Source: Dehalococcoidia bacterium (GTDB taxonomy: Bacteria; Chloroflexota; Dehalococcoidia; GIF9; AB-539-J10). Taken from it: 41,917 bases of DNA. The notes beneath the pieces were generated by a model that was given only the letters and a program-made list of their open reading frames with translations, was not told the origin of the DNA and did no database searches. The first letter of the stretch is position 1, and each line of letters starts with the position of its first letter. The translations under genes and the position numbers were made by a program. The DNA lies in contig WJOY01000009.1 in assembly GCA_009619075.1 (NCBI GenBank), positions 1 through 41,917 on the forward strand. Reading direction: 5' to 3'. This document shows, piece by piece, positions 15,028 to 39,773 of this stretch.

Positions 15028-15174
15028 AATTATTATGTCAAGAAGATTTTAATTGTCCCCCTGAACCAAAGCTCTGAGCAAAGCGAAGAGGCTAGTGAAG
15101 GGTCTCTAGATTCTTCCCCTTCACTTTGTTCAGGGTCAGAATGACAAGCGGAGTTGCTAGAATTATTATGTCAA
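15023..15174. mobile_element. Small palindromic dispersed repeat flanked by 19-bp direct repeats
   Basis: GCTAGAATTATTATGTCAA at 15023-15041 and 15156-15174; internal CCCTGAAC(C)AAAG/CTTTGTTCAGGG and GTGAAGGG/CCCCTTCAC inverted repeats. Confidence 0.75.
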
Positions 15175-16376
15175 AAACAATCGCTGAAATTAACCAGAAA
15201 ATTAAAAGGGGCAAGGCAGTGGTGGTCACTGCCGAAGAGGTGATTGACATCACCAGGGAAAAAGGTGGCAGACAGGCAGCAGAGGAAATTGATGTCGTCA
15301 CCACTGGCACTTTCAGCCCCATGTGCTCTTCAGGTGTCTTTCTCAATATCGGCCACTCCAAACCCAGAATAAAACTCGGCGGTGGCAAGGTTTACCTTAA
15401 TGATGTTCCAGTCTACACCGGGTTAGCTGCAGTGGATGTCTTTCTCGGAGCAACTGCTCTCCCTGACGATGACCCCAGAAACAAATTTTATCCCGGCGAA
15501 TTTAACTACGGCGGTGGACATGTCATTGAGGAACTTGTGGCCGGAAAAGATATCAGGCTAATAGCCACTGCTTATGGCACCGATTGCTATCCCAGGAAAA
15601 AGCTAGAAACATGGATCAATCTCAAAGACATCAATAATGCCATTCTGTTTAATGTCAGAAATGCCTATCAGAATTATGATGTCGGTGTGAACTTGTCAGA
15701 TGAAACGATTTACACTTACATGGGAGTGCTAAAGCCAGAATTGGGCAACGCCAATTATTGTACCTCAGGAGAGCTTTCCCCCTTGCTCAAGGACCCTTAT
15801 TACAAAACTATAGGCATAGGAACTAGGGTATTTCTTGGTGGCGACATTGGCTATGTTGCCTGGCATGGCACACAGCATAATCCACACGTTTTGCGCACAG
15901 ACAACGGCACACCTAAAGGGCCTGCTGGAACCTTGGCACTCATCGGTGATCTGAAACAGATGAAACCGGAATGGTTAGTCGGAACAAGCATGCTTGGCTA
16001 CGGCTGTACGCTAACTGTGGGCATAGGCATTCCCATACCCATACTATCCGAGGAAATCCTACGCTATACTATGGTAAGCGATGCTGCTATCTTTGCTCCC
16101 ATTGTGGACTACTCTGAAGCCTATCCACAAAGGAAGCCAGATATTTTAGCAGAGGTTAGCTACGCTGAACTCAAAAGGGGGCATATAACCATTCAAGGAA
16201 AAGATGTGCCCACGGCATCCTTATCCAGCTATCCTAAGGCAATAGAGATTGCCAATATCTTGAAAGGCTGGATAGAAAGAGGAGAATTTTTGCTCACAGA
16301 ACCTGTAGCCCCTCTACCCGGGGCGGAGTCAGGCATAACCTTTAAGCCACTTAAAGAAAGGCCAATAATGGAGTAA
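15168..16376 (+). CDS. COG1900/DUF39 homocysteine biosynthesis protein (L-aspartate semialdehyde sulfurtransferase-type)
   Basis: CSSGVFLNIGHSKPRIKLGGGKVYLNDVPVYTGLAAVDVFLGAT; start set at ATG 15168 inside the second direct repeat. Confidence 0.92.
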   Translation: MSKTIAEINQKIKRGKAVVVTAEEVIDITREKGGRQAAEEIDVVTTGTFSPMCSSGVFLNIGHSKPRIKLGGGKVYLNDVPVYTGLAAVDVFLGATALPDDDPRNKFYPGEFNYGGGHVIEELVAGKDIRLIATAYGTDCYPRKKLETWINLKDINNAILFNVRNAYQNYDVGVNLSDETIYTYMGVLKPELGNANYCTSGELSPLLKDPYYKTIGIGTRVFLGGDIGYVAWHGTQHNPHVLRTDNGTPKGPAGTLALIGDLKQMKPEWLVGTSMLGYGCTLTVGIGIPIPILSEEILRYTMVSDAAIFAPIVDYSEAYPQRKPDILAEVSYAELKRGHITIQGKDVPTASLSSYPKAIEIANILKGWIERGEFLLTEPVAPLPGAESGITFKPLKERPIME

Positions 16377-24793: not shown

Positions 24794-24868
24794 GGTGAGC
24801 GTAGCCTAGTGGTTTAAGGCGCCAGGTTGTGGCCCTGGAGATCGTGGGTTCAAATCCCACCGTTCACC
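24794..24868 (+). tRNA. tRNA-His(GTG)
   Basis: Anticodon arm CCAGG-TTGTGGC-CCTGG; T-arm GTGGGTTCAAATCCCAC; GTGAGCG/CGTTCAC acceptor with G-1:C73. Confidence 0.92.
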
Positions 24869-24871
24869 CTT

Positions 24872-24911
24872 GCGCCTATAGCTCAGCGGACAAGAGCACC
24901 GGTCTTCGGAA
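24872..24911 (+). pseudogene. Truncated tRNA-Arg(TCG) 5' half (attL)
   Basis: GCGCCTATAGCTCAGCGGACAAGAGCACCGGTCTTCGGAA identical to 38476-38515, then diverges. Confidence 0.93.
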
Positions 24912-25330
24912 GATGAGCCAGGCATGATGTCTCATATAGTCTGAGATGGTTACGCTGTCCGCTCCGACCCCCCAGCCTACGATGGGACACAGCTAACCAC
25001 AAAGGCTACCACCGACGGGAAGCGGCACGGGGAGCGTCAAAACGGGGAGGTTCACGATGGCATGGGTAGAGCAGCGGTTTCGTAATTCTAGGTTAAGGGT
25101 ATCAAGAGATGGTTTTAGCTTCAAAACAGTGCTATTCCATTTTTGGTTTCAAAGCTAAAATACCATTGGGTAACAACCCGTTGTTGGCAAATTAACGCCA
25201 AATTTCTAGCTTCAGTTTGAGCGTGAAATACTGCTAAGACTGCTAAGAATAATTGAAACTCCCTTTTTCTAGCCTCCCATAAAATGATTGTCCACGCTCA
25301 AGTCAGCCTTGCTTTAATTTGCATTTAAAA

Positions 25331-25496
25331 TCAGGTTCAGAAATACCTTAAAACGCTTTTTTTACTTTGTGCACGTAAACCGCTTAATTTTAGCCTCGTT
25401 GAATTAGATTTTTGAGTGTAAAAAATGATGGTATTTTTTGAAGCTAATATGGCAGGAATATGCAAAAAACAGTATTTTAATTTGAACCTATAATTG
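25331..25496 (+). repeat. ~165-bp noncoding repeat, copy A
   Basis: 'ccgcttaattttagcctcgttgaattagatttttgagtgtaaaaaatgatg…tttgaagctaatatggcaggaatatg' matches 26386-26560. Confidence 0.9.
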
Positions 25497-25541
25497 CCAG
25501 TTAGAAGCTTGTATCCTCAGATTGTTGTGAAGTAAAATGAG

Positions 25542-26285
25542 ATGATGAATTGGATTGGTATATTAGTAGGTATTATTGGTGTTGCTATAGCGATATACTT
25601 TGGTATAGCTTCAAGGAGAAGACGTGAACTAGTATATTCAGTCAATTCAGTTCGCACAAGAGTGGTTATTTCGGGGCAAACAAAGGACCTTGATGTATTC
25701 TATGATGGCAGTTCATTGGGAGATGTAGATATTACGGCTGTTCAGCTAGCATTTTGGAACGCAGGGAATGAAAGCATCCGAAAACCTAATATTCTTGAGG
25801 AAGTTGTTGTAAAAACTGAACCACCGGTGCGTATACTGGAAGCATCTATAAGAGCTCAATCGCGAAATATTGTAGGATTAAGTCTGCTAGATTCGCCCAA
25901 CTCAAGAAAGATTGGACAAGTGCCCATATCTTGGGATATTTTGGAAAGAAATGATGGCGCTTCTATTCAGTTACTATATCTTGGAGAACCGGAGGTCGAT
26001 GTTTCGGTACAAGGTGTTATTGAAGGGCAACGGGAGATTAAACGTCTAAGTGTAAGTACAGATTTTAAATCACCACAAGACCAAAAGAAATCGTTTAGAA
26101 AGAGTGTTTTGATAGCAACTGTTTGCTTCATAATACTTCTAATTTCAATGGCATTGTTGTTTTTCAGAAAGTTGGATCCTGATTATATAGCTATAGTTTT
26201 TTCTGGTTCAGTTATGATATTCTTAATTTCGACTTTGAATGCAATATCTAAAAAGCGTGAAAAGTATCCTCCATTTGGCTTTTAA
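25542..26285 (+). CDS. Unknown membrane protein (N-terminal TM, C-terminal TM pair)
   Basis: Long ORF between the two repeat copies; hydrophobic N-terminus and two C-terminal hydrophobic segments. Confidence 0.75.
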   Translation: MMNWIGILVGIIGVAIAIYFGIASRRRRELVYSVNSVRTRVVISGQTKDLDVFYDGSSLGDVDITAVQLAFWNAGNESIRKPNILEEVVVKTEPPVRILEASIRAQSRNIVGLSLLDSPNSRKIGQVPISWDILERNDGASIQLLYLGEPEVDVSVQGVIEGQREIKRLSVSTDFKSPQDQKKSFRKSVLIATVCFIILLISMALLFFRKLDPDYIAIVFSGSVMIFLISTLNAISKKREKYPPFGF

Positions 26286-26385
26286 ACCCTCTACCTCACG
26301 TTTTTAAAAGGTGATTTTAAGCACACCCTCCACCACATTAGCTTGAAGTAGCCTAATTTAGCCTCGTTTTGTTTTCCATTGGAAA

Positions 26386-26560
26386 TCAGCCTCAAAAATG
26401 CCTAAAAACACCTTTTTTACTTTATGAGCGTAGACCGCTTAATTTTAGCCTCGTTTAATTAGATTTTTGAGTGTAAAAAATGATGCAATTAATGTAATTA
26501 TTTGAAGCTAATATGGCAGAAATATGGGAAAAACGGTATTTCCATTTAGGAACTTATTGT
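26386..26560 (+). repeat. ~165-bp noncoding repeat, copy B
   Basis: See 25331-25496. Confidence 0.9.
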
Positions 26561-26598
26561 AGAAATGTGGTTAAATTCGCAATAAGAGGAGGTTAAAA

Positions 26599-27222
26599 AT
26601 GGGAAGTAAAGCAATAATAATAGCAGATTTGGCAGCTGGTTTATTGATTGGTATGCAGTTTTTATTAACACAAGAAAAGTATAAAAGTTGGGATGAGAAG
26701 CTATTAAAGAAACTACAGGTAAACATATTTGATAGTGATTCATTCAGAATAAAGACAATGCTAATACCTGGATCTTTAACAGCGGTTATTATGTTGGGGA
26801 TAATTATACAGGGAACGATTGTAGATCTTACCGAAGGTGCTCTTAACGTAGGACATATTTTATTGTCTGCCATCAGTTTGACAGGAGGAATGATAATAGC
26901 GATTGGCATTATATTTCTTGTAGTATGGATAAAAAATAGAGTAAGACGCTTCCGGAAATTTAATCCTATGGTGATGGTGTATTTAGTAGGGATGGTATTA
27001 GGAATAGCCTTTTTGTCTGTCTTAATGGTGGTCGTTGGAAGGGTATCTACTCATATTATAGCCCTTATTGTAGCATTTACAGTTGGCGTAATGCTTATGG
27101 GGGTATGGGCTGGGGGAATGAGGTATATCCAGCAGTATTTAACTTTTACGAATGGGCTGTTGATACGTTTGGGAATACTGATTTTCGTAAGTAGTAAGTT
27201 TTTACAATTGATTTATATGTAA
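26599..27222 (+). CDS. Unknown multi-pass membrane protein
   Basis: Good RBS (agaggaggtt); several hydrophobic helices. Confidence 0.75.
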   Translation: MGSKAIIIADLAAGLLIGMQFLLTQEKYKSWDEKLLKKLQVNIFDSDSFRIKTMLIPGSLTAVIMLGIIIQGTIVDLTEGALNVGHILLSAISLTGGMIIAIGIIFLVVWIKNRVRRFRKFNPMVMVYLVGMVLGIAFLSVLMVVVGRVSTHIIALIVAFTVGVMLMGVWAGGMRYIQQYLTFTNGLLIRLGILIFVSSKFLQLIYM

Positions 27223-27277
27223 AATAATTTTATTATAGAATATAAGATATTTCTTCCCTTGAAGAAGGACGGTCAAA

Positions 27278-28015
27278 ATGATTGACATTAGAATAAAATA
27301 TCAAGCATCCATTTTCGTGGACGCTAATGACATTACTCCTTCTCCAGATATAATAAGCCCGCTTATCGACATTTTTCGAGATAAAACCTTCATCCCCAAT
27401 ACGTTTCAAGAGATAGGTCCTGCATCTCCAGTCCCAAAGGTAAGGCTTAGGCTATCCACAACGAATAACGAATGGAATATTGCTTTCGCTACACATAGGA
27501 TTAATATCGATAAAAATCCAATTGAACCGAGAGGAAGCAACCTAGGCGAATTATCTGATTTCTGTTCAGAGGCTATGGATTTCTTCGGAAGAATACTAAA
27601 TAAGTTCAATAAAAGAGCAAACCGCCTTACTCTAAATACTAACGGACTATTTGAAGAAATGACCGAAACCCAGCTTTCTACTATATACACAAAGTTGTTC
27701 AAAACAACTAAGTTCTACAGCGAAAACCCTCCGTTTGAATGGGATTGGAGGTCTGTTTCAGAAATACCTATCAAAATCTTAGAACTGACGGATAGCCTTT
27801 ACGTTATAACCATATTAAAACGTGTAAGGGGCGAAATTGGTGGCCAAAGTGGTGTATCCAAGTTGGATCGCATCCAATGTTCCCCAGATATCAACACCTC
27901 TAGTCAAAATACTAATTATCGATTTGGACTACCCCACATCAAAAACTATTTTCCGCAGGCTCTTGAAATTCATAACATGCTAATTGAACAGATGGAGGAA
28001 TATATTAATGCCTAG
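27278..28015 (+). CDS. Unknown protein, first gene of three-gene operon
   Basis: 245-aa ORF; overlaps next gene start at 28008. Confidence 0.78.
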   Translation: MIDIRIKYQASIFVDANDITPSPDIISPLIDIFRDKTFIPNTFQEIGPASPVPKVRLRLSTTNNEWNIAFATHRINIDKNPIEPRGSNLGELSDFCSEAMDFFGRILNKFNKRANRLTLNTNGLFEEMTETQLSTIYTKLFKTTKFYSENPPFEWDWRSVSEIPIKILELTDSLYVITILKRVRGEIGGQSGVSKLDRIQCSPDINTSSQNTNYRFGLPHIKNYFPQALEIHNMLIEQMEEYINA

Positions 28016-28640
28016 TTTCATTTTAGAAATAGACAGTGGCACAAGTCATGATTTAGCTGAGCAAAGATTATTAAACCTCCTGATTGAGACTGATTATCCT
28101 GATTCAGCTCAATCTACACTGCCCTTACTTCTGAATATTCTTCAGAGTAAAGCAGCTCATATATCAGTAGTTGACGAGAATTATATTAATCAAAGTCGCT
28201 TACTGAAACTAAAAAGACAGTTTACTCCTAAAATACTCAATTTGATATTGGAGTCAGTCTTTGAATACGGCATCGATTCACAAGCAGATGTATTCATTCG
28301 TAGTCAGATGAAGGAAAACTCTCTGGTAACCAAAAATTGGCTCAATGAAATTTTTGTCGAACATTTTTCAAACCCTGTTATTCTTATTGGCATCCTTCGT
28401 ATTATATCTCGACTTTTCTATTACGCGGTTTACCCAGAAGGTCAGCTTATGGCAACTACAGCTCTTTCACACTCTAACGTTGAAGTTCAAGAATGCGGAG
28501 TCCGTGCTTTCGAAAGTTGGGGAACCTTAGATAGTCTTCGTATCCTTAATAACATTAAAGTAGTTACGCCTTGGCTTCAAGATTATGTTAACGAGGTAGT
28601 TAAAGACTTAAGTAGAGGGCATAATGTCCCTGTTGGTTAG
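28008..28640 (+). CDS. Unknown, possibly helical-repeat (HEAT-like) protein, second gene of operon
   Basis: ATG 28008 overlaps upstream stop; helical text ending SHSNVEVQECGVRAFESWGTLDSLRIL resembles a HEAT unit. Confidence 0.72.
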   Translation: MPSFILEIDSGTSHDLAEQRLLNLLIETDYPDSAQSTLPLLLNILQSKAAHISVVDENYINQSRLLKLKRQFTPKILNLILESVFEYGIDSQADVFIRSQMKENSLVTKNWLNEIFVEHFSNPVILIGILRIISRLFYYAVYPEGQLMATTALSHSNVEVQECGVRAFESWGTLDSLRILNNIKVVTPWLQDYVNEVVKDLSRGHNVPVG

Positions 28641-29145
28641 AAAAATCGACAAAAGCAAGTGGCTACAGAACAACATTATTGCTGATGAAGATGTTTCCGC
28701 AGATGCTATCACTATTTGCCTAAGAACGTCTGAAAATACACTCAGCGTCTGGAAGGTCTCGACTGAAAACGATATTGAAGAAGCTATTCTTGCCATGGTA
28801 TCTGGTGGTGACCACCTTGAGTCTATAGATATAATAACAATTGATTGTCAACACATAGCATCTGATAGGATAAATTGTGTCCAAAGTTTAGAACAATCGC
28901 TTACTCGTGTTCGAGACCTTAAAAACGCACATTACGATATAATTGACTTATCTTACCGTAAGCTGGGAGTTATTTCACAGTATATTGTTGACTGTTTTAA
29001 AAAGGGGCAAATAACCAACCGCTGTGAAGAAGGTAAAGTCGTCAGATACACTGAAGGCTATCTCAAGGGAATTATTCAAAAAGCCATAAACAAAGGGCGA
29101 TTGAAGAAAGAAGATCTTCCTGATTCTATCCAAAATAAACTTTAA
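28624..29145 (+). CDS. Unknown protein, third gene of operon
   Basis: Overlaps 28640 stop; 173 aa, no recognisable family. Confidence 0.75.
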   Translation: MSLLVRKIDKSKWLQNNIIADEDVSADAITICLRTSENTLSVWKVSTENDIEEAILAMVSGGDHLESIDIITIDCQHIASDRINCVQSLEQSLTRVRDLKNAHYDIIDLSYRKLGVISQYIVDCFKKGQITNRCEEGKVVRYTEGYLKGIIQKAINKGRLKKEDLPDSIQNKL

Positions 29146-29321
29146 TAATTTCTCTCCTATTCTCTACCATTGCCATTATTCTAAAAACACCTTATGGCTT
29201 TCCCGACGTCCTGTTAGTAGGGTAGGACGTTGCTTTGGCAGTCGGTGAAGATACTGGCAGGACGTTAAGGAAGTTAATCAAGTAGCCGCCAGTTCCCAGG
29301 TATATATATAACCAAAGAGAG

Positions 29322-29345
29322 GAGAGTGGCCGTGGAGCCACTCTC
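29322..29345. terminator. Hairpin GAGAGTGGC-CGTGGA-GCCACTCTC
   Basis: Perfect 9-bp stem followed by TTCGTTT; lies just 3' of the capsid remnant on the minus strand. Confidence 0.65.
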
Positions 29346-29369
29346 TTCGTTTACCTTGCCATGCCCCCA

Positions 29370-29594
29370 CTATGCGTGTTCGGTTAGCAGCACCAGAGGT
29401 TTGTTCGCTATACGCATCACGTTACCTGTTACACGTTTATGAATCTTAAAGCCGACTAATCCAGCCGCACTATAGAGCTCGGTTAGTCGCTGGATGGGCA
29501 TGCCACTCCGGTCGACGACCCTGTAGCCGCTGCGGAAGTCGCCAAATATAGCGATCACCGCGCCTGCTCCTGAAGCGAGAATCCCAGTAATCAT
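29370..29594 (-). pseudogene. HK97-type major capsid protein, C-terminal fragment
   Basis: AVIAIFGDFRSGYRVVDRSGMPIQRLTELYSAAGLVGFKIHKRVTGNVMRIANKPLVLL is typical of the capsid C-terminus. Confidence 0.8.
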
Positions 29595-29644
29595 ACCGAT
29601 GGGACTAACTTACAAAGTGATATAATATACGGGGGCAGGCCATA

Positions 29645-30127
29645 ATGAGAATGGTAAAAACCAAAAGGAAAAGAAAGCCGTATAGCGAAAGAAATGACCT
29701 TGAAAGAATTAGATCCAATTGGAGAAAAATAGAAGGGCTATATCACAAGGGAGAATGGTCAAGTGTCGTAATAAGATCAGCTACAGCTACTGAAATTGCA
29801 ATAAATCTTGTGATAAGAGAGGAGCTTGCAAATAAACGGAAGCTTGAGAAAGACTTTGTCGAAAGCCTTTTAATTTGGGCGAATGGTATTCAAGGTAAAG
29901 TAAACCGGCTGATACGTCCTCTTCTAACAAACCCAGAAGACACTAGAGTATTTAGAGATTTGAGTTCTATGATTAATGATATAAACAATGAACGTAATTC
30001 AGTTGCGCATAGTGGACAATTTAAAAGGAAAACAACTGCAATAAAAATCGTCAACTCATCTAAGGAAGTCATAGAAACATTGGTAGGACGATATAAAGGG
30101 AACTTTGAACTTAAGGATATTTTATAA
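29645..30127 (+). CDS. HEPN-like domain protein
   Basis: Helical 160-aa protein with RNSVAH (Rx4H). Confidence 0.6.
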   Translation: MRMVKTKRKRKPYSERNDLERIRSNWRKIEGLYHKGEWSSVVIRSATATEIAINLVIREELANKRKLEKDFVESLLIWANGIQGKVNRLIRPLLTNPEDTRVFRDLSSMINDINNERNSVAHSGQFKRKTTAIKIVNSSKEVIETLVGRYKGNFELKDIL

Positions 30128-30315
30128 TACCGGATAAAAATGAATCACACAAAACATAGGAATTGGAAGGTTTCTATGGAGTAGCTAGAGCTTAGAGCAG
30201 ATATGAATACGGAAGGAAAACAGATAATAGATAAGTCTTAGTTCAAATAATCAAAGTTAGAATATGTGAAATAAGCAGCATTAAGCATCTAGTAAGTTTT
30301 TCAGCTGGGGGGAGT

Positions 30316-31272
30316 GTGAGAAAGAAAGCTATTCCAAATCTATTCGACCCATCAAAGGACGTGAGTTATAGGTTAGATCTACTTATTCAGCTCCTATATG
30401 ATTTCGATTGCCACGAAAGATTCTACGTAATCCGTGACCTTACGGGAGAATGTGGCATTTCGGCAGAATACAAAGACCGGATCACCGACTTTCTTAAAAT
30501 TCCTACAAGTAATGTTGAATTTTGGAGTATTGACTATTCTATAGACTGGCTTTATGCAGCCCTGTTCCTTTCTCAAACAGAACCCACCGGTTCTATTTAT
30601 GATAACGTTGGAAATATCATTAGAGGCAACAATGAGGATGTAGACATTCTACTGGCGCTCCGGGCTGAGGACAAAATCCATTTGGTTATGATAGAAGTAA
30701 AAATCGAGATACCTTTTAGTGAATCACAGCTTACCTCAAAGGTTAGAAGGCTCGAGATGCTCTTCGGTACAGACGGTAAAAGGTTTCCCCATATTTACCC
30801 TCATTGGCTACTTGCTTCTCCATACAGGAGCCGAAGGATTAGCACGAAGGATTGGCCCAGCTGGATGACAAACGCAGATGATGAATATTTGTGGTATGAG
30901 ATAAAGAAGAATTTCCATAGCATGAAGATAACAAGGTGTGACAGCAAGGGAACTCCATGCAAACATGGTGCCTATTGGATTCTTGAAGGACGAAAAGGTG
31001 TAAAACTAAGTGTGAATCTTACTCTGCAGGAACGCCAAGCTATCTTGAGGAATATTTATATATCTGACCAAGTAAAACTCCCTCTTGAGTCTCTTGGTTC
31101 AGAGCAGTCGACAGTTGACATTTATTACTCGATCCCTGACTTCGTTTCAATTCTCCATGCGGTCTCACAAGAAGCAGAACGAACTAATGATACTAGCCGT
31201 GCTGAATTTCTTAGTGAACTGCATGACAGGTTGTCAACACTTTTATATGACGAAGGAGCAATACTCCCATAG
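30316..31272 (+). CDS. PD-(D/E)XK nuclease-like protein
   Basis: NEDVDILLALRAEDKIHLVMIEVKIE (D…ExK); GTG start. Confidence 0.65.
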   Translation: MRKKAIPNLFDPSKDVSYRLDLLIQLLYDFDCHERFYVIRDLTGECGISAEYKDRITDFLKIPTSNVEFWSIDYSIDWLYAALFLSQTEPTGSIYDNVGNIIRGNNEDVDILLALRAEDKIHLVMIEVKIEIPFSESQLTSKVRRLEMLFGTDGKRFPHIYPHWLLASPYRSRRISTKDWPSWMTNADDEYLWYEIKKNFHSMKITRCDSKGTPCKHGAYWILEGRKGVKLSVNLTLQERQAILRNIYISDQVKLPLESLGSEQSTVDIYYSIPDFVSILHAVSQEAERTNDTSRAEFLSELHDRLSTLLYDEGAILP

Positions 31273-31354
31273 GAAAGTTATTTGAGGTATAATCCGGCCC
31301 ACGAACACAAGTGTAGAATAGTATTGGCGATACTCTTTGGTTAAGGAGCGAAAT

Positions 31355-32332
31355 ATGAATAATTGGTTCGCAGTGCATTCATTAGAAGCCTTCCAGCAAA
31401 ATCCTAGGATGCTTGGATTCGTAGCCAAGACTAAGCTTGATGGGTCCGTTCTCAAAGACCAGAACGACAAGCCTATGCCGGCTATGGACAAGGTCTTGGA
31501 GGTAAAGCCGAGGGATCACATTGTCTACTACTGTAGGGGTGACTATGTAATTAAAGGCATCTATGAGGTTGTGAGGGCTTGTTTCGCTGAAGAAACAAAG
31601 TGGCCGGATTCGCCTTTCCAATTTAAAATAAAACCAATAATTGAGTTAGATGAACCCTTTGACTTTCGCGTTTTGTTGTCCTCACTTGACATGTTTAGAG
31701 ATTTAGAGGATATACGGAAATGGGGAATGCCTCTTCGTGGTACGTATAACGCCCTTAAACGTCTCACCGACCACGACTATGCAACGATTGAAAAAGCCAT
31801 AGTTCAAGCTAGAGACCAGGGCACAGTGAGAGAGGATTACGAGATTGAAGGAAAACTTAGAAACTATAGGCAACACCTTCAGATTCAGTACAAGATAGCG
31901 GAGTGGGGCATAGAAAACGGATATCGAGTGCATATTGCAATTAATGACAAGGGCAAGATAAAAGAGAAGCTTAACAAAATACTCTCGGATATCCCTAGGT
32001 TTCACTCAGACAAGATTTTGGAAATTGCGGAAAGGATTGATGTGCTCTTTTTTGATAAGGAACGAGATATCTTGACGCATGCTTTTGAGGTTGAGCATAC
32101 TCCAACTATGTATTCCGGCCTTCTGCGATTGAATGATATTGCCGAAACCTGCCATAGAGGAACCACAAAATTCTATATCATCTCTGATAAGGGCAATAGA
32201 GACAAGTTCAATCACGAACTCGAAAGACCCTCATTTCAATTGTTGAGAGTGGATAAGTGTGAGTTTGTAAGCTACGAGGAATTGGGGGAAGCGTGGAAGC
32301 AATTACAGAACAAATCTGTGCCGTTGTTCTGA
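31355..32332 (+). CDS. EVE (PUA-like) domain fused to nuclease-like C-terminal domain
   Basis: MNNWFAVHSLEAFQQNPRMLGF…KPRDHIVYYCRGDYVIKGIYEV; C-terminal IDVLFFDKERDILTHAFEVEHTPTMYSGLLRLNDI. Confidence 0.7.
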   Translation: MNNWFAVHSLEAFQQNPRMLGFVAKTKLDGSVLKDQNDKPMPAMDKVLEVKPRDHIVYYCRGDYVIKGIYEVVRACFAEETKWPDSPFQFKIKPIIELDEPFDFRVLLSSLDMFRDLEDIRKWGMPLRGTYNALKRLTDHDYATIEKAIVQARDQGTVREDYEIEGKLRNYRQHLQIQYKIAEWGIENGYRVHIAINDKGKIKEKLNKILSDIPRFHSDKILEIAERIDVLFFDKERDILTHAFEVEHTPTMYSGLLRLNDIAETCHRGTTKFYIISDKGNRDKFNHELERPSFQLLRVDKCEFVSYEELGEAWKQLQNKSVPLF

Positions 32333-32403
32333 GCAGCAGTATTCCACTGACAAGGTGACTAACGCTGTTTCTCAGCCGGTAACTGGTAGGTTCTTGGGTG
32401 ACA

Positions 32404-33120
32404 ATGAACATAATTGGCATTGACTGCGCAACTAAGCAGGCCAAAATTGGTCTGGCTTTCGCTTTGTATCAAGATGGCAAGGCTATTGTGCGAGATGTGA
32501 AAATTGGCAGTGAAACCACAACGGTGTTGGTAACTATCAAGGACTGGTTAGCCTCGGGGAAATTGACACTTCTTGCCTTGGACGCGCCACTTGGCTGGCC
32601 CACCGATTTGGGGGTGAACTTACATTTACATAAAGCAGGAGAATGCATAAATGTAGACCCCGATATAATGTTCTCACGCTATACCGACCGGAAATTATGG
32701 CCAAGGTTATCCAGGAAGCCGCTCGAAGTCGGCGCAAATCTAATAGCCAGGACTGCTCACGCAGCATTGCGATTACTGGGACAGTTACGAGAGGAAACCA
32801 AGTTAACGATTCCTCTAGCGTGGGATCCTAATGTCACTGAGACGTGTGCTATTGAGGTATATCCTAGAGCTACTCTTGAGATGATTGGTATCAAGTACGA
32901 GCAACGGTTGTCTGCGATACGTGAGATTGACGCCCTGGTTATTGAATCGGGAGAGGACAATCTGACGAGTGAGCATAGTTTAGATGCAGTAATATGTGTA
33001 CTCGCCGCAGTAGATTTTATAACTGGTAAGTGCCCAGCGCCAAATATGAGTGAGAAGGTTCTTGCGGATAAAGAGGGCTGGATTTGGGTGCGGGGAAGCC
33101 GTGGAAAGATGAAAAATTAG
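32404..33120 (+). CDS. DUF429-family (RNase H-fold) protein
   Basis: IIGIDCATKQAKIGLA; LLALDAPLGWP; EVYPRATLEMIG; SEHSLDAVICVLAA. Confidence 0.82.
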   Translation: MNIIGIDCATKQAKIGLAFALYQDGKAIVRDVKIGSETTTVLVTIKDWLASGKLTLLALDAPLGWPTDLGVNLHLHKAGECINVDPDIMFSRYTDRKLWPRLSRKPLEVGANLIARTAHAALRLLGQLREETKLTIPLAWDPNVTETCAIEVYPRATLEMIGIKYEQRLSAIREIDALVIESGEDNLTSEHSLDAVICVLAAVDFITGKCPAPNMSEKVLADKEGWIWVRGSRGKMKN

Positions 33121-33132
33121 AAGGGATGATGC

Positions 33133-33357
33133 GTGACTGTTGACCTTAATCAACTGCGCTCTGAAAGAAGAGAACTCTTTGATCGATGCGTGAAGGCGAG
33201 TTCCTTCAATGAGCTATTAGAAATTGAGGTAGCAATTGCAAACTCGATTCGCCACGCACAAGCTACTCCCAGGTTTACTCAGAGCGAGAGTAACAATCGC
33301 TCATTTTGTTACCTCATTGCACTTTCTAGCGTTTTGCTACTCTCGCTGACACCATGA
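33133..33357 (+). CDS. Hypothetical small protein
   Basis: GTG-start ORF just after DUF429 with gaaggga RBS-like sequence. Confidence 0.4.
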   Translation: MTVDLNQLRSERRELFDRCVKASSFNELLEIEVAIANSIRHAQATPRFTQSESNNRSFCYLIALSSVLLLSLTP

Positions 33358-33447
33358 ACCTAAGTCAGGGTGCCATACTATGCGTTTAACATGGATTATA
33401 CGCTAGGCCTTTCAGCAAGGTCGGCCTTGTCTTATATTTGTCCATAT

Positions 33448-33493
33448 TTGTCGCGTATTGTTTAATATTGTATAATTTAGTACTATATGGTAC
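33448..33493 (+). promoter_or_regulatory. Promoter TTGTCG-17bp-TATAAT and palindrome GTACTATATGGTAC upstream of Xre gene
   Basis: -35 33448-33453, -10 33471-33476, dyad 33480-33493, ATG at 33497. Confidence 0.6.
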
Positions 33494-33496
33494 ATT

Positions 33497-33712
33497 ATGG
33501 ACAAGATGGCAACACTTAAGGAATTGCGACTAAACAAGCTATTGAGTCAAGCTAAGTTAGCCAGACTATCTGGCGTTAGTAGAACCACAATAGTAGCGAT
33601 CGAGAACAATCAACATACGCCACAACCTCTGACAATACATAAGCTGGCTAAAGCACTTGGCGTAGACCCAACAGATATAGATGATCATGATAGAACTAAG
33701 CGATCTTCTTAA
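33497..33712 (+). CDS. Xre-family HTH regulator (controller-like)
   Basis: LRLNKLLSQAKLARLSGVSRTTIVAIENNQHTPQPLTIHKLAKALGVDP; overlaps the methylase start. Confidence 0.9.
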   Translation: MDKMATLKELRLNKLLSQAKLARLSGVSRTTIVAIENNQHTPQPLTIHKLAKALGVDPTDIDDHDRTKRSS

Positions 33713-36700
33713 TAAACTAGATTACGATACGTCTTTACATTACAAGCGGGCAGATGGACCGACTGACGTTGAAACAGCACATCTATTCCGTGCCGCTCGT
33801 GATGCAGGGGTTAGCGGCATTTACGTGTTTGAAGCAAGCCCAATCGACACGTATAAATTACTGAGCCCGAGACCCGTTGTTTACGTGGCTCGAGCAAATA
33901 CTGAAGAAGAAGCAAGGCAAATTCACCGCAGTCTGTGGAATCTCGGATATGCTCCGTTCTTACTCATTTTACTACCGCACCAAGTTAGGATTTATACGGG
34001 CTTTGATTATTCAGAAGAATCGGAAGAACAAGGTCTATTGGATGTAGCCAATAATCTGGAGCAACTTGTTGATCTATTGTCTGATTTTAAGGCTCACTCG
34101 ATTGATACCGGATTCATCTGGGAATCTAAATACTATAGAGAAATAGATCAAGATCAGCGAGTAGATAGACGCCTACTTAGCAACCTGGAGCAATTGGGCA
34201 AAGCCTTGGAAGATTCTGGTCTTTCTGACGAACTAGCTCACGCCTTAATCGGTAAATATGTTTACTTGAGCTACCTGAAAAGTAGGGGAATCTTAACAGA
34301 CGAGTGGATTAGAAAACAGCAAATAATGCCCCAAGGCGTATTTTCGCATAATGCAAACGTGGTCAGTTTGCAAAAGCTAGTAGTAGCTTTAGAAGAACGC
34401 TTCAATGGCAGGATCTTTCCTATAGATTTTCAAAAGGAAAAGACTCTTGAGGATAAACATGTTTCTTGGGTAGCCTCGGTATTTAGTGGATCTGAAATCA
34501 TAGAAGATGTTCCGGAATCAGTTTACCAGTTATGTTTTCCATTCCGAGCTTATGATTTCAGCTACATTCCTGTTGAGACCCTTTCAGCTATCTATGAGCA
34601 GTTCATCCGTGATAGGAAAGAGAAGGGAGCAATTTACACACCAGAAGTCTTGGCTGACTACGTACTTTCAGAGATGGAGTGGGCCAAGCCTCTTGAACGA
34701 GGTATGAAAGTGCTCGATCCTGCGTGTGGCTCGGGCGTGTTTCTAGTGCTAGCTTATCGACGTCTTATTGAAAAAGAGATATACCATTTGGGCTTAACCG
34801 AAAAGCTCAAACTTGAAACGCTGCGTGATATTTTGCTAAAAAGCATCTACGGAATCGAGCGGGAACGTGATGCTTGTTATGTAGCTGAATTCAGCTTGAT
34901 CTTGACCTTGCTCCATTATACAGAGCCACGCGATTTGAATAGTCTAAAGTTTAAATTCCCTGAATTACACAATAAGCAAATATTCGAATGTGATTTCTTC
35001 GATATCGAAGGTGAAAAAGATGGAGCCAGGTTTTGGCAACGGGGGCTTAAGTTTGATTGGATTACCGGTAATCCTCCGTGGATTGAACTAAAGCCGGATA
35101 CAGAGGGAGTGGAATGTGTCAGGGCTTGGATTGAAAACCCCAATAATGAGAAGGAGCATCCTGTTGGTGGTAACCGAGTGGCTGAAGCATTTAGCTGGCT
35201 CGTCACTGACTTACTAAACCAAGATGGACTCATCGGACTCGTACTACCAGCTACAAGTCTTTTCAACCGGGAATCTGGAAAATTTAGACAATCTTTCTTT
35301 ACGAAGCACGAAGTTCTGCGAGTTACAAATTTCGCAAACCTTAGAGACATTCTCTTCGGGAGAGAGAAAAGTGGCGTATTACCCGCTATGACCATGGTTT
35401 ATCGCCCATCGGTAGATTCACATCACAAACCACACATCATACATTATGGGCCATTTTCCGTTAATCAGATTACTACGAGGAGAGATAAACCGTGGGTTAT
35501 TACAATCAACGAAAGCGAAATAAAGTCGATACCACCTTATGAAGCCGAACAAGGAGAAATGTTAACCTGGAAATTGGCATTGTGGGGAACATATCGTGAT
35601 AAACGAGCTATAGAGCGCATAAGGCACCTTTCCCCAAATACTCTTGAGGATTTCTGTAAACAGAATGGATGGGGCGAAAGATTGCCAAGGGAGGGTGCAC
35701 AGCTTCGCACTGAACGCGAAAACCCACGATGGTTCAAAGCCAATATAAAGGGACAAAAGAAGTTTGATACAAAAACCTACGATGCGATAAAACCACGCTA
35801 TCGTTTCTCAATTCCAGATGGCAGTGTTCTTCAAGAAATTATAGATGACGTTTATATACGGACGGGTAAAGATACACTATATTTAACTACACCAGCACCT
35901 CATGTTATCTTGTCCGCTAGTTGGCAAAACTTTGCTATATACAGCGATTATGATTTTGTTACTCCTCCGCGACAGATGGTCATCTCAGCCCCAAGATCGC
36001 CTAAAGAGAATGAAGACTACCTGCGAGCACTGACGATCTATCTCAGCTCAAGTCTAGTTGCATATTATCTATTCTTCCAAGTCCCTCAGTGGGGAATTTT
36101 TAGCCAGCGAGGAAGTGTGATAACAAAGGCGGTTCGAAAAATACCCACACCGCTTTTTACCACGAAACAAGCAAAAGAGTTCGCAGATTTCCATAGAGCG
36201 TTAGTTGAGAGAGAACGCTGTGACAAAACTCGCTTTGTCTCAGACTCGTTACAGAGACGAAAGATCTTTGGCCAATTTAATACTGTTGAAGGAAGCTCTT
36301 CGTTATCAAAGGCTCTTAAGACCCTAACGAGCAAGGAAAAACAGGAAATCGATCGTTTTGTTTGGGAAAAGGATGAGGAGTTACAGAGAGACATCGATAA
36401 TAAGGTATACGACCTTCTAGAGATCCCTGAAGACATTAAGCTCTTAGCAAGTGAGTTTGTGCAAACTCGTTTACTTCTAGACAAGCCCTCAGTGAGAGAA
36501 AGAATAACCAGAAAGCCTACCAAAGAAGTATTATTGGCCTATGCTAGACAACTCCAAAAGGAGCTTGATAGTTTTACCACGGGCACAGCCTATCATCGAG
36601 TAAATATTACTCATTCTAATGATTTGATTCAATGTGTAGTTGAAATCACTAAAGAAAACGCTCCTATTGTGGTAAATGAGGATAGCATTAAGAGCGGAGA

Positions 36701-36905
36701 ATTGACTACTGCCAGACTGTTAGAAAAACTTAGTCAGAGTCTGCGAGAGCGAGTTAGCCAATGGGTTTATGTACAGCGCGGATTGCGTCTTTATGACGGC
36801 CCTAAAGTCTATATTTATAAAGCACCGCGTTTAGTTGATTGGACACGAACCCAAGCAATGGACGATGCTGCGGACATCATCGGACAGGCAATAGTAAGCA
36901 CATGA
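33681..36905 (+). CDS. Eco57I-type N6-adenine DNA methyltransferase
   Basis: VLDPACGSGVFLVLAYRRL (SAM motif) and WITGNPPWIEL (NPPW catalytic motif). Confidence 0.92.
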   Translation: MIMIELSDLLNKLDYDTSLHYKRADGPTDVETAHLFRAARDAGVSGIYVFEASPIDTYKLLSPRPVVYVARANTEEEARQIHRSLWNLGYAPFLLILLPHQVRIYTGFDYSEESEEQGLLDVANNLEQLVDLLSDFKAHSIDTGFIWESKYYREIDQDQRVDRRLLSNLEQLGKALEDSGLSDELAHALIGKYVYLSYLKSRGILTDEWIRKQQIMPQGVFSHNANVVSLQKLVVALEERFNGRIFPIDFQKEKTLEDKHVSWVASVFSGSEIIEDVPESVYQLCFPFRAYDFSYIPVETLSAIYEQFIRDRKEKGAIYTPEVLADYVLSEMEWAKPLERGMKVLDPACGSGVFLVLAYRRLIEKEIYHLGLTEKLKLETLRDILLKSIYGIERERDACYVAEFSLILTLLHYTEPRDLNSLKFKFPELHNKQIFECDFFDIEGEKDGARFWQRGLKFDWITGNPPWIELKPDTEGVECVRAWIENPNNEKEHPVGGNRVAEAFSWLVTDLLNQDGLIGLVLPATSLFNRESGKFRQSFFTKHEVLRVTNFANLRDILFGREKSGVLPAMTMVYRPSVDSHHKPHIIHYGPFSVNQITTRRDKPWVITINESEIKSIPPYEAEQGEMLTWKLALWGTYRDKRAIERIRHLSPNTLEDFCKQNGWGERLPREGAQLRTERENPRWFKANIKGQKKFDTKTYDAIKPRYRFSIPDGSVLQEIIDDVYIRTGKDTLYLTTPAPHVILSASWQNFAIYSDYDFVTPPRQMVISAPRSPKENEDYLRALTIYLSSSLVAYYLFFQVPQWGIFSQRGSVITKAVRKIPTPLFTTKQAKEFADFHRALVERERCDKTRFVSDSLQRRKIFGQFNTVEGSSSLSKALKTLTSKEKQEIDRFVWEKDEELQRDIDNKVYDLLEIPEDIKLLASEFVQTRLLLDKPSVRERITRKPTKEVLLAYARQLQKELDSFTTGTAYHRVNITHSNDLIQCVVEITKENAPIVVNEDSIKSGELTTARLLEKLSQSLRERVSQWVYVQRGLRLYDGPKVYIYKAPRLVDWTRTQAMDDAADIIGQAIVST

Positions 36906-37564
36906 ACGCTGACTATACAATTACAATCAAGCCTAGCGAAATATATTTCGGAGTTTACCGCAGTCTATTTAGACAGCAAGTGCATCAGTTGATTGCTTGG
37001 GGACATCGCAGTGCTCGTCATAGTATACAATCGAATAACGAAGAGGAGCCAAATATTACCGGTTATATTACTGAAGCCATTAGGGCACGTCTCGTGACGA
37101 ACAGCCCCCCATGGTGTGTGTATTACTTTGTTCATGAAGACACGCCGATAGCGGCAAGTGGTCGTTCAGGAAGGTCTAGACCTAGACCTGATATTATTAT
37201 TGAAACAAACTTAGGAGGGCGTCCTGAGTACGTTTTTGAAGCAAAGCGGTTAAGAATAAATGGGTTCGAAGCAAGCAAATATATCGATTCAGATGGTATG
37301 GGATGCTTCGTGAGTGGCCTATATGCTTCGAGATATGATGAAGCAGCTATGCTCGGTTACATCCAGAGCGACTCATTGATTCACTGGAAAGATCAAGTAA
37401 AGAAGACTATTGATGAGAATGCGGAACAATTGTGTTTAGAATCTCCGCAGTATGATAAAACAGTAATAGACGTTTTCCCCCTTGAATGGGTCAGTGAACA
37501 TAAACGAGTTAAAGCAGGACATTCCATTGCTATCTATCATATTCTCTTAGACTGCTGTGCCTAG
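36902..37564 (+). CDS. Restriction endonuclease-like protein
   Basis: RPRPDIIIETNLGGRPEYVFEAKRLRI (D…ExK); ATGA overlap with the methylase. Confidence 0.75.
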   Translation: MNADYTITIKPSEIYFGVYRSLFRQQVHQLIAWGHRSARHSIQSNNEEEPNITGYITEAIRARLVTNSPPWCVYYFVHEDTPIAASGRSGRSRPRPDIIIETNLGGRPEYVFEAKRLRINGFEASKYIDSDGMGCFVSGLYASRYDEAAMLGYIQSDSLIHWKDQVKKTIDENAEQLCLESPQYDKTVIDVFPLEWVSEHKRVKAGHSIAIYHILLDCCA

Positions 37565-37607
37565 TAAGCCTATGGATGGGGTATATTGATTAGGAGCGAG
37601 GTAATAG

Positions 37608-37712
37608 ATGAAAACCCTTGCCCAGGTCATTCCTACTTCGGAGCAATTAGCCATTATCTCACACCCCCGTGCGGGTGTTCAGCTGATAAGGGGAGCGGCT
37701 GGCATTGGTTAA
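37608..37712 (+). pseudogene. Decapitated helicase: N-terminal Walker A region only
   Basis: MKTLAQVIPTSEQLAIISHPRAGVQLIRGAAGIG*; resembles the start of UvrD-type helicases up to GAAGSGKT. Confidence 0.6.
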
Positions 37713-37729
37713 TAACCCCGCAAGAGGTT

Positions 37730-37990
37730 TTACCCTCTCACTATATATAGGGCATTGAGTATTGTTGTTGGCGAGGTGAAGCTCAGGTCTGCCAGTCCTA
37801 AGCAATATAGCCGCTTGTCTATCGTGACGGCACCGGCGGCAGCGGTCGTTACTGTGGCTGCTGCCAGGGTGGCATCTTTGGTGAATCCCTCTGGCTGCTG
37901 ATTGTCGTGTCCGGTACCAGCGATGAACGCCAGCTCCTCGGCCTCGGCGACTGCTCTGGCGAAGCTATCAACCAAGAGGTCAGCCAGATT
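37730..37990 (-). pseudogene. HK97-type major capsid protein, internal fragment
   Basis: LADLLVDSFARAVAEAEELAFIAGTGHDNQQPEGFTKDATLAAATVTTAAAGAVTID; real similarity probably ends near 37825. Confidence 0.78.
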
Positions 37991-38446
37991 CTGTATAAGG
38001 GCAGAGGCAGAGTCGAGTTTAAGGAACCAAAGACAGAATATAGCAGGCGTAGGGTCGGCATGACGCCAAAGCTGGCACTATTCTTCAGAGAATATAAGGC
38101 TGAGAGGGAATCGCTTCACTGGCAGCTAGGGGTGCCGCTCACTCTTGATGACCTCGTCTTCGCCAATTACGATGGGAAGCCGATAGACCCTAGCACCTTG
38201 ACCCATAATTTTGGTAGAATAGTAAAGCGTGCAGGGTTGAGCGCCCGCTTCCACGATTTGAGGCATAGCTATGCATCTCTGATGTTGGCGTCTGGCGTTC
38301 ATCCTAAAATAGTCTCCGAAGCGCTGGGACATAGTACGGTGGCCATCACCCTGGACATATATAGCCACGTCACCCCAGGGCTTCAAGAGGCGGCTGCGAA
38401 GCAGCTTGACTCCCTGCTGCCAGTTGGAGTGGCTCGAGCGGCATGA
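37990..38446 (+). pseudogene. Tyrosine integrase, C-terminal catalytic fragment
   Basis: QILYKGRGRVEFKEPKTEYSRRRV…RFHDLRHSYASLMLASGVHPKIVSEALGHSTVAITLDIYSHV; N-terminal part missing. Confidence 0.88.
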
Positions 38447-38475
38447 AAGCGTCACGGGGAGGTTTAGCTATGCGT

Positions 38476-38549
38476 GCGCCTATAGCTCAGCGGACAAGAG
38501 CACCGGTCTTCGGAACCGGGGGTCGTGGGTTCAAATCCCTCTAGGCGCG
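38476..38549 (+). tRNA. tRNA-Arg(TCG)
   Basis: GCGCCTA/TAGGCGC acceptor; CCGGT-CTTCGGA-ACCGG anticodon arm; T-loop TTCAAAT. Confidence 0.95.
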
Positions 38550-38565
38550 CTACTGAGTCACCCTC

Positions 38566-38608
38566 TTTTGCTAACATTTTGCTAACATTTTGCTAACATT
38601 TTGCTAAC
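38566..38608. repeat. Tandem 11-bp repeat TTTTGCTAACA x ~4
   Basis: Units at 38566, 38577, 38588, 38599; last unit overlaps the integrase stop codon. Confidence 0.92.
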
Positions 38609-39773
38609 GAACTTCCGTTTGAGCTGTTTCCGGCTCAAGCAGCGTATCAAAACGCAAAGCCGCTGCTTCCTGGAGTCCTGGCACCACATGGCTATAGGTA
38701 TCGAGTGTTATGCCTATATTTGCATGCCCCAGCCTTTCAGAGACTATCTTGGGATGCACGCCAGCCTTAAGCATTAGAGTAGCGTGAGTATGCCTGAGGT
38801 CGTGAAAGCGAATATGCGGCAGCCCAGCCTTCCGAATGAGCCTGCCAAAACCATGGCTAACTGTGCTCGGGTCCAGAGGGCTGCCATCAGGATGGGCAAA
38901 CACCAAATCGCTACCAGCCAACCTTTCCCCAAGCAGAGCTTTCTGTGCTTCCCGCTCAGCGTGATGCCCACGCAGTAACTTTGCTAGAGACGGTGATAGC
39001 GACACCAAACGCCGACTATGAGGACTCTTAGGCTCTTTTATCACGAATTCCCCACTGCTTAGCCTATATAGAGTTTGAACTACAGAAATTGAAGCCCGCC
39101 CCAGGTCTATATCACACCACCTTAGCCCCAAAAGCTCACCACGCCGCATCCCGGTATAGAGAGCTGCGTAAAATAAAACGTAGTAGGGTGTCCTTCGGGC
39201 AGCATCAAGAAACCTGGGAACATTCTCAGAGGCCAGCGTGGACATCTCGATCCGACCAGGCCGCGGTGGAACGACAGCTTCAGCCACATTCCGAACTACC
39301 ACCCCCTGCTTCACAGCATGGCTTAACGCCTCTGACAGAACACGATGTTGGTGTAACACGGTCCGACCAGAAAGACCCCCCTTCCCATCAAGCCGGCCAT
39401 GTGATAGGGCACCTGAATAGTAATTTTCAAGATGCTGCGGTTGAAGCTGGCAAAGTGGTATTCCACCCAGAGCAGGAACAATGTAGCGGTGCACAATAGC
39501 CCGATACCCTTCAGTCGTCCGAGGTGAGGTGTGTATTGCAGCATAGCTCTCAACCCACTGCTTTAGATATTCACCCAGGCTTACCTTTTGAGGCTTGACA
39601 TAGGCACCTCTCTCCAGGGAATGTAGGGTTTCCCTGAGTTCCCGCTGCGCATCCCCCTTTGTCCCTTTGACCGTCTGCCATTGTTGGCGACGTTTGCCCG
39701 TCTGAGGATCTCTCCCTACATCAATAATGATGCTCCAGGAACCTTTACTCCGTTGCTTAATATGTCCTCTCAT
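38604..39773 (-). CDS. Tyrosine-type site-specific integrase, intact
   Basis: RGHIKQRSKGSWSIIIDVGRDPQTGKRRQ; TGMRRGELLGLRW; RFHDLRHTHATLML; LGHANIGITLDTYSHV. Confidence 0.95.
   Translation of the reverse strand: MRGHIKQRSKGSWSIIIDVGRDPQTGKRRQQWQTVKGTKGDAQRELRETLHSLERGAYVKPQKVSLGEYLKQWVESYAAIHTSPRTTEGYRAIVHRYIVPALGGIPLCQLQPQHLENYYSGALSHGRLDGKGGLSGRTVLHQHRVLSEALSHAVKQGVVVRNVAEAVVPPRPGRIEMSTLASENVPRFLDAARRTPYYVLFYAALYTGMRRGELLGLRWCDIDLGRASISVVQTLYRLSSGEFVIKEPKSPHSRRLVSLSPSLAKLLRGHHAEREAQKALLGERLAGSDLVFAHPDGSPLDPSTVSHGFGRLIRKAGLPHIRFHDLRHTHATLMLKAGVHPKIVSERLGHANIGITLDTYSHVVPGLQEAAALRFDTLLEPETAQTEVR

Follow-up and report, generated by a model that had tools for sequence, protein, structure and literature searches.

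We find that the window, the whole 41,917-nucleotide stretch of DNA analysed here (contig WJOY01000009.1 of a Dehalococcoidia bacterium), very probably carries a decayed, phage-derived integrative island in a tRNA-Arg(TCG) gene, with its integrase truncated and with defence-type cargo held between fossil phage edges. The window is one entire contig of a 936 kb metagenome-assembled genome (MAG; G000) that is 68% complete in 47 contigs. All of the genomes compared with it are likewise draft MAGs, available as assemblies only, and most of the related islands are split over contigs. Islands could be followed from end to end in two genomes only, the window's own and Dehalococcoidia A509 (G149, DUEE01000016.1), which provides the one complete relative.

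The borders of the island are given by the following features, with tRNAs called by ARAGORN and the tRNA-His by Rfam as well:

24795..24869, plus strand: tRNA-His(GTG), the chromosomal left neighbour of the insertion site
24871..24911, plus strand: attL, the 5' half of tRNA-Arg(TCG), an exact copy of 38475-38515 (41/41 identical)
24912..25042, no strand: conserved non-coding left end, 93.9% identical to G149 (L064 2798-2928) and G049:C8
37962..38446, plus strand: tyrosine recombinase 3' stub, catalytic C-terminal half only (PF00589 40-169/172, 7.3e-18)
38476..38550, plus strand: tRNA-Arg(TCG), reconstituted at attR (att core 38475-38515)

The att copy beside tRNA-His ends within the anticodon loop of tRNA-Arg, and at the other end 30 bp separate the integrase stub from tRNA-Arg(TCG). 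An empty site is found in a genome of the same genus (G002:C174), where tRNA-His runs straight into an intact tRNA-Arg and the nearest 2 kb of flank is 92% identical; the order tRNA-His then tRNA-Arg recurs in many other genomes of the family. Given the att repeats at both ends and the uninterrupted site in G002, the mobile unit is a 13,604-bp integrative island, 24912-38515. The first-pass annotation had instead taken the inserted unit to be the ~8 kb between the capsid fragments at 29370-37990, and that block is the right part of the island. The island's own integrase is not intact in the window, being reduced to its C-terminal half, which is 91.5% identical to the G149 stub over 106 aa (88% in nucleotides). 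A full-length integrase of the same kind (395 aa) adjoins tRNA-Arg(TCG) in G049:C70. The left end is also present as two tandem copies in G008:C61, to which that of the window is 83% and 78% identical.

Other features of the window lie outside these borders. To the right of tRNA-Arg there is a second, intact tyrosine integrase (38604-39773, minus strand) beside tandem TTTTGCTAACA repeats (38564-38608), a repeat with 26-36-bp matches in many genomes of the family; together these suggest that another element follows in tandem and that the att-flank repeat is widespread. At 729-2092 an M48-type peptidase gene has a tandem repeat of its N-terminal part, 1667-2092 being almost a duplicate of the start of 729-1670.

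Inside the island are two remnants of a phage capsid gene:

29376..29573, minus strand: capsid C-terminal remnant (SGAGAVIAIFGDF...KPLVLLTEHA*), PF05065 224-271, residues 328-392 of the G049 capsid at 65%
37817..37990, minus strand: capsid middle remnant (NLADLLVDSFARAVAEAEE...AGAVTID), PF05065 92-149, residues ~198-258 of the G049 capsid

A profile search of the whole genome with PF05065 (Phage_capsid) gave exactly two matches, both inside the window, one at 37817-37993 on the minus strand (model 92-149, E 1.7e-8) and the other at 29412-29552 on the minus strand (model 224-271, E 1.8e-7). Both pieces align on one intact capsid of 393 aa in the G049 prophage, and both match PHROG 10 ('major head protein'), at profile positions 460-508 and 575-625. 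When the IMG/VR viral contigs were searched with a single capsid as query, one capsid was matched by both pieces at 60 of the 69 loci with a capsid relative. The gap between the matched parts was 198-282 nt in the 14 best of the IMG/VR loci, as compared to 8.2 kb in the window. The best viral match to the C-terminal piece (79% identity) is at L163, where the gap is 204 nt, and two viral contigs have the same C-terminus LLTEHA*. By homology, these alignments confirm the two fragments as adjacent, non-overlapping, ordered parts of one HK97-type major capsid protein.

The earlier claim of two minus-strand fragments of one capsid, on the same strand, in the right order and without the central stretch, was thus borne out when both were compared to one capsid homologue. 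Its description of them as two halves was less accurate. What survives is a middle piece and the C-terminus, with the N-terminal ~197 residues gone and ~70 central residues gone too, leaving no complete ORF. It had also drawn the internal segment as 37990-37730, of which 37990-37817 is indeed capsid, but the homology stops at 37817 and 37730-37816 is non-capsid. The right piece ends at ~37990, where the plus-strand tyrosine recombinase starts, with the truncated integrase fused to the capsid edge. Among the main ORFs of the island, scanned with Pfam and NCBIfam, there were no terminase, portal, tail or lysis genes and the capsid pieces were the sole structural family; the PHROGs search covered only the capsid pieces and the integrases.

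The junction of the cargo with the right capsid piece is shared with the complete relative:

37786..37829, no strand: right-hand junction of the cargo with the capsid remnant, 84% identical to G149 (L064 8808-8851, E 2e-8)

It is common to G149 only and over these 44 bp only, of which ~31 bp lie outside the capsid homology. Since G149 has different cargo at this junction, the capsid break at ~residue 258 would appear to be a derived feature that both islands share and that predates their different cargo. The direct repeats or recombinase scar suggested as a check on the capsid junctions did not appear. No target-site duplication, inverted repeats or transposase scar was found there, and the longest shared word is 8 nt (0.2 expected), which speaks against the cargo having simply transposed into the capsid. 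Beside the right junction, window 37600-37712 is 96% identical to G019:C29 350-462 and resembles the beginning of a P-loop helicase-type gene (KTLAQVIPTSEQLAIISHPRAGVQLIRGAAG); this fragment looks like a truncated remnant.

The cargo occupies two slots, the second of which extends over 29574-37803, with defence families assigned by PADLOC:

25542..29145, plus strand: slot 1, five A+T-rich ORFs (GC 0.33-0.39), two of them membrane-protein-like
29645..30127, plus strand: slot 2, HEPN-like protein (weak; PADLOC CARF_HEPN 1.2e-4)
30316..31272, plus strand: slot 2, 318-aa protein, no family match
31337..32332, plus strand: slot 2, EVE domain with a Type II REase-like C-terminus (EVE 0.0013; REase_II 6.7e-10)
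32398..33120, plus strand: slot 2, DUF429 protein, PDC-S44-like (PF04250 1e-11; PADLOC PDC-S44 4e-9)
33497..33712, plus strand: slot 2, Xre/C-protein-like HTH regulator (PF01381 2.6e-16; R-M control protein 2e-8)
33681..36905, plus strand: slot 2, Type IIG restriction-methyltransferase, 1074 aa (PADLOC REase_MTase_IIG 3e-59; Eco57I and N6_Mtase Pfam)
36902..37564, plus strand: slot 2, 220-aa protein, no family match

The slot 1 ORFs had nothing above the curated cut-offs of Pfam or NCBIfam. In slot 2, the gene calls of the first-pass annotation agree with ours for the Type IIG restriction-modification (R-M) enzyme, the EVE plus REase_II protein, the DUF429 protein and the Xre regulator, and the HEPN call is a weak one (1e-4). 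Its nuclease calls for 30316-31272 and 36902-37564 found no counterpart, as these two had zero matches in the Pfam, NCBIfam and PADLOC libraries searched. In all, three of the slot 2 ORFs are small or unassigned. Judged from their families only, the slot 2 genes would be of defence type.

Between the two slots, and downstream of the capsid stop, lies a further conserved element of the backbone:

29195..29375, no strand: conserved ~180-bp backbone spacer with two terminator-like hairpins

We searched for this spacer in 52 genomes of the family, in G149 and in 32 other genomes of the order. It was found, at 79-91% identity, in nine genomes with the window's own included, namely 8 of the 52 family genomes and G149, and it was absent from all 32 of the others. 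A ninth family match, in G034 (L026, a MutS2-like gene), is a 27-bp chance match, and hits to its pattern elsewhere, in other phyla and IMG/VR, came on comparison to at most 19-21 bp, which we took as chance. Capsid C-terminal codons lie directly beside the spacer at five places (in the window, in G005 and in G149, and as short stubs in G015 and G002), and every capsid copy found with the spacer is broken, the one in G005 by a frameshift and a stop. We read the spacer as phage-derived backbone. It also stands near tRNA-Arg(CCT) in G015 and G003, so that it is not limited to one site, and a role in recombination would be possible for it. Two further ideas about the spacer were given up. As a structured RNA it had no Rfam match and a fold z-score of -1.55, and the folded alignment showed no compensatory changes. 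As an integrase attachment site, the repeated AACGTCCTG was suggestive only, and this was dropped because the real att sites are the tRNA-Arg halves.

Defence-type genes often adjoin the spacer in other genomes as well, with Shedu in G002, Type III R-M and a caspase in G049, and AbiU and BanI R-M in G051; in G005 there is a DNA methylase elsewhere on the spacer-bearing contig. In G005:C9 (L007 6106-7859) acsB- and acsD-like Wood-Ljungdahl genes are interrupted by an inserted DNA methylase (N6_N4_Mtase) with a 236-aa gene after it, and in G002:C17 (L021 3530-3620) the capsid C-terminal codons form an in-frame fusion with an IS3-family OrfA-like start (MFRKTYPPEQIINKLREAEVLLTEHA*).

The comparison to relatives shows how the island has changed. 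The G149 island is 6.6 kb long and has the same backbone order as the window with different cargo. It runs from tRNA-His through the tRNA-Arg 5' half, the left end (94%), cargo, the spacer (89%) and a capsid end (NKALVLLKEHA*) to a GmrSD-like gene (GmrSD_N 3.6e-27), the 44-bp junction, the integrase stub and tRNA-Arg. This left end and spacer recur on the shorter contigs G049:C8 and G008:C61. As in a defence hotspot, the same backbone holds a Type IIG R-M system in G000, GmrSD in G149, and Type III R-M with a caspase (PDC-S65) in G049. The cargo of these islands is not defence alone, given that the first of the tandem islands in G008 carries ArsR and an ArsP-type permease. On that contig (L022 3392-7190 of G008:C61) the two tandem left ends come with tRNA-Arg 5' halves. 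From these comparisons, the island cargo has turned over while the fossil phage edges persisted.

Additionally, the island DNA has crossed between genera. For one chromosomal gene of the window (15126-16376), identity is 70% to G149, 80% to G008 and 82% to G005. By contrast, the island backbone of G000 matches that of G149 at 88-94%, and the spacer reaches ~90% in G005. Non-coding island DNA that is more alike than a chromosomal gene indicates transfer between genera after these had split. Measured against this one gene, the identities show horizontal movement of the backbone between the genera of G000 and G149, and for G005 horizontal movement of island DNA is likely.

Other origins for this arrangement have to be considered. 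The first-pass annotation had a block inserted in a prophage capsid gene, and part of that stands, since there is one capsid gene with defence-type genes between its pieces and its middle missing. A single defence cassette that transposed or recombined into an intact capsid gene, replacing the middle, would give two collinear pieces of one capsid 8.2 kb apart. However, the junctions have no direct repeat longer than 8 nt and no transposase, the 5' part of the capsid is lost as well with the integrase 3' stub fused in its place, and G149 has the same junction with different cargo, all of which makes this account improbable. Still less credible is an assembly artefact, in which unrelated fragments were joined in the metagenome bin. 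The source is a draft and the window is a whole contig of it, but the same backbone order is seen in the independently assembled DUEE01000016.1, and the att repeats and the empty site agree to the base.

The nature of the ancestor leaves more room for doubt. Instead of a full prophage, it could have been a phage satellite that encoded a capsid, or a capsid-homologue locus standing alone, with the capsid functional beside the spacer before it decayed. This would fit with the five places where capsid codons adjoin the spacer, beside which no further phage structural gene was recognised. Against it, the capsid relatives sit on viral contigs, some with the identical C-terminus, the capsid copies with the spacer are all broken, and the remaining phage genes might simply have been deleted. 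We consider such an ancestor unlikely.

The decayed phage-derived island that we favour arose in several steps. An ancestor that had a tyrosine integrase and the capsid gene of a phage entered the anticodon loop of tRNA-Arg, where the duplicated 5' half of the gene is still seen. Most of the phage genes were then deleted, in an order that we can only infer, leaving the observed fusion of an integrase and a capsid piece that both lack their N-termini. The capsid probably broke before the current cargo came, as the G149 junction supports, and the leftover, non-essential phage sequence probably became the place where restriction-modification genes and others of defence type could land, which could have entered by illegitimate or homologous recombination. 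Relatives in other genera have the same edges with other cargo, and a likely mechanism for this would be deletion and recombination between the conserved backbone segments, swapping the cargo. The capsid fragments make nothing and are fossil markers of where the cargo slot begins and ends. A more tentative proposal, which we think unlikely, is that the left end, the 180-bp spacer with the capsid C-terminus, and the capsid/integrase stub are maintained as homology arms or recombination sites for swaps of defence cassettes between genera. If true, the broken phage DNA would act as a cargo dock.

The arrangement itself, a grounded prophage that is integrated at a tRNA gene and serves as a defence hotspot, is already known, and the window shows it with unusually clear borders and with relatives in other genera. 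Grounded (cryptic) prophages are hotspots of gene acquisition (PMC6379469), and the island resembles them in its disabled integrase, decaying phage genes, accumulating foreign genes, tRNA-Arg site and duplicated end. Unlike the grounded prophages of E. coli described there, it belongs to a cross-genus island family of Dehalococcoidia in which a phage edge of a few hundred bp surrounds defence-type cargo. In the antiviral hotspots of P2 and P4, for which exchange by homologous recombination was proposed (PMC9122126), small variable defence cargo is similarly flanked by two conserved phage or satellite landmarks. Those landmarks are functional genes of live elements, whereas here a broken capsid, a spacer and the stub of an integrase take their place. 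The integrase-only defence islands at E. coli tRNA hotspots (PMC10121019) are also tRNA-integrated and carry R-M and other defence genes with the integrase as the main mark of mobility, but the window island keeps capsid relics and its own integrase is truncated.

Within the literature we searched, the instance is new for this bacterial family, though the kind is not. It offers a base-exact case of a decayed prophage turned into a cross-genus slot for defence genes, in a lineage with few cultured members. Probes made from its ends, spacer and junctions can serve to find more defence cargo in Dehalococcoidia and to learn whether such slots exchange it by recombination. More generally, relics of phage genes that flank a defence block can mean old decay and not recent insertion.
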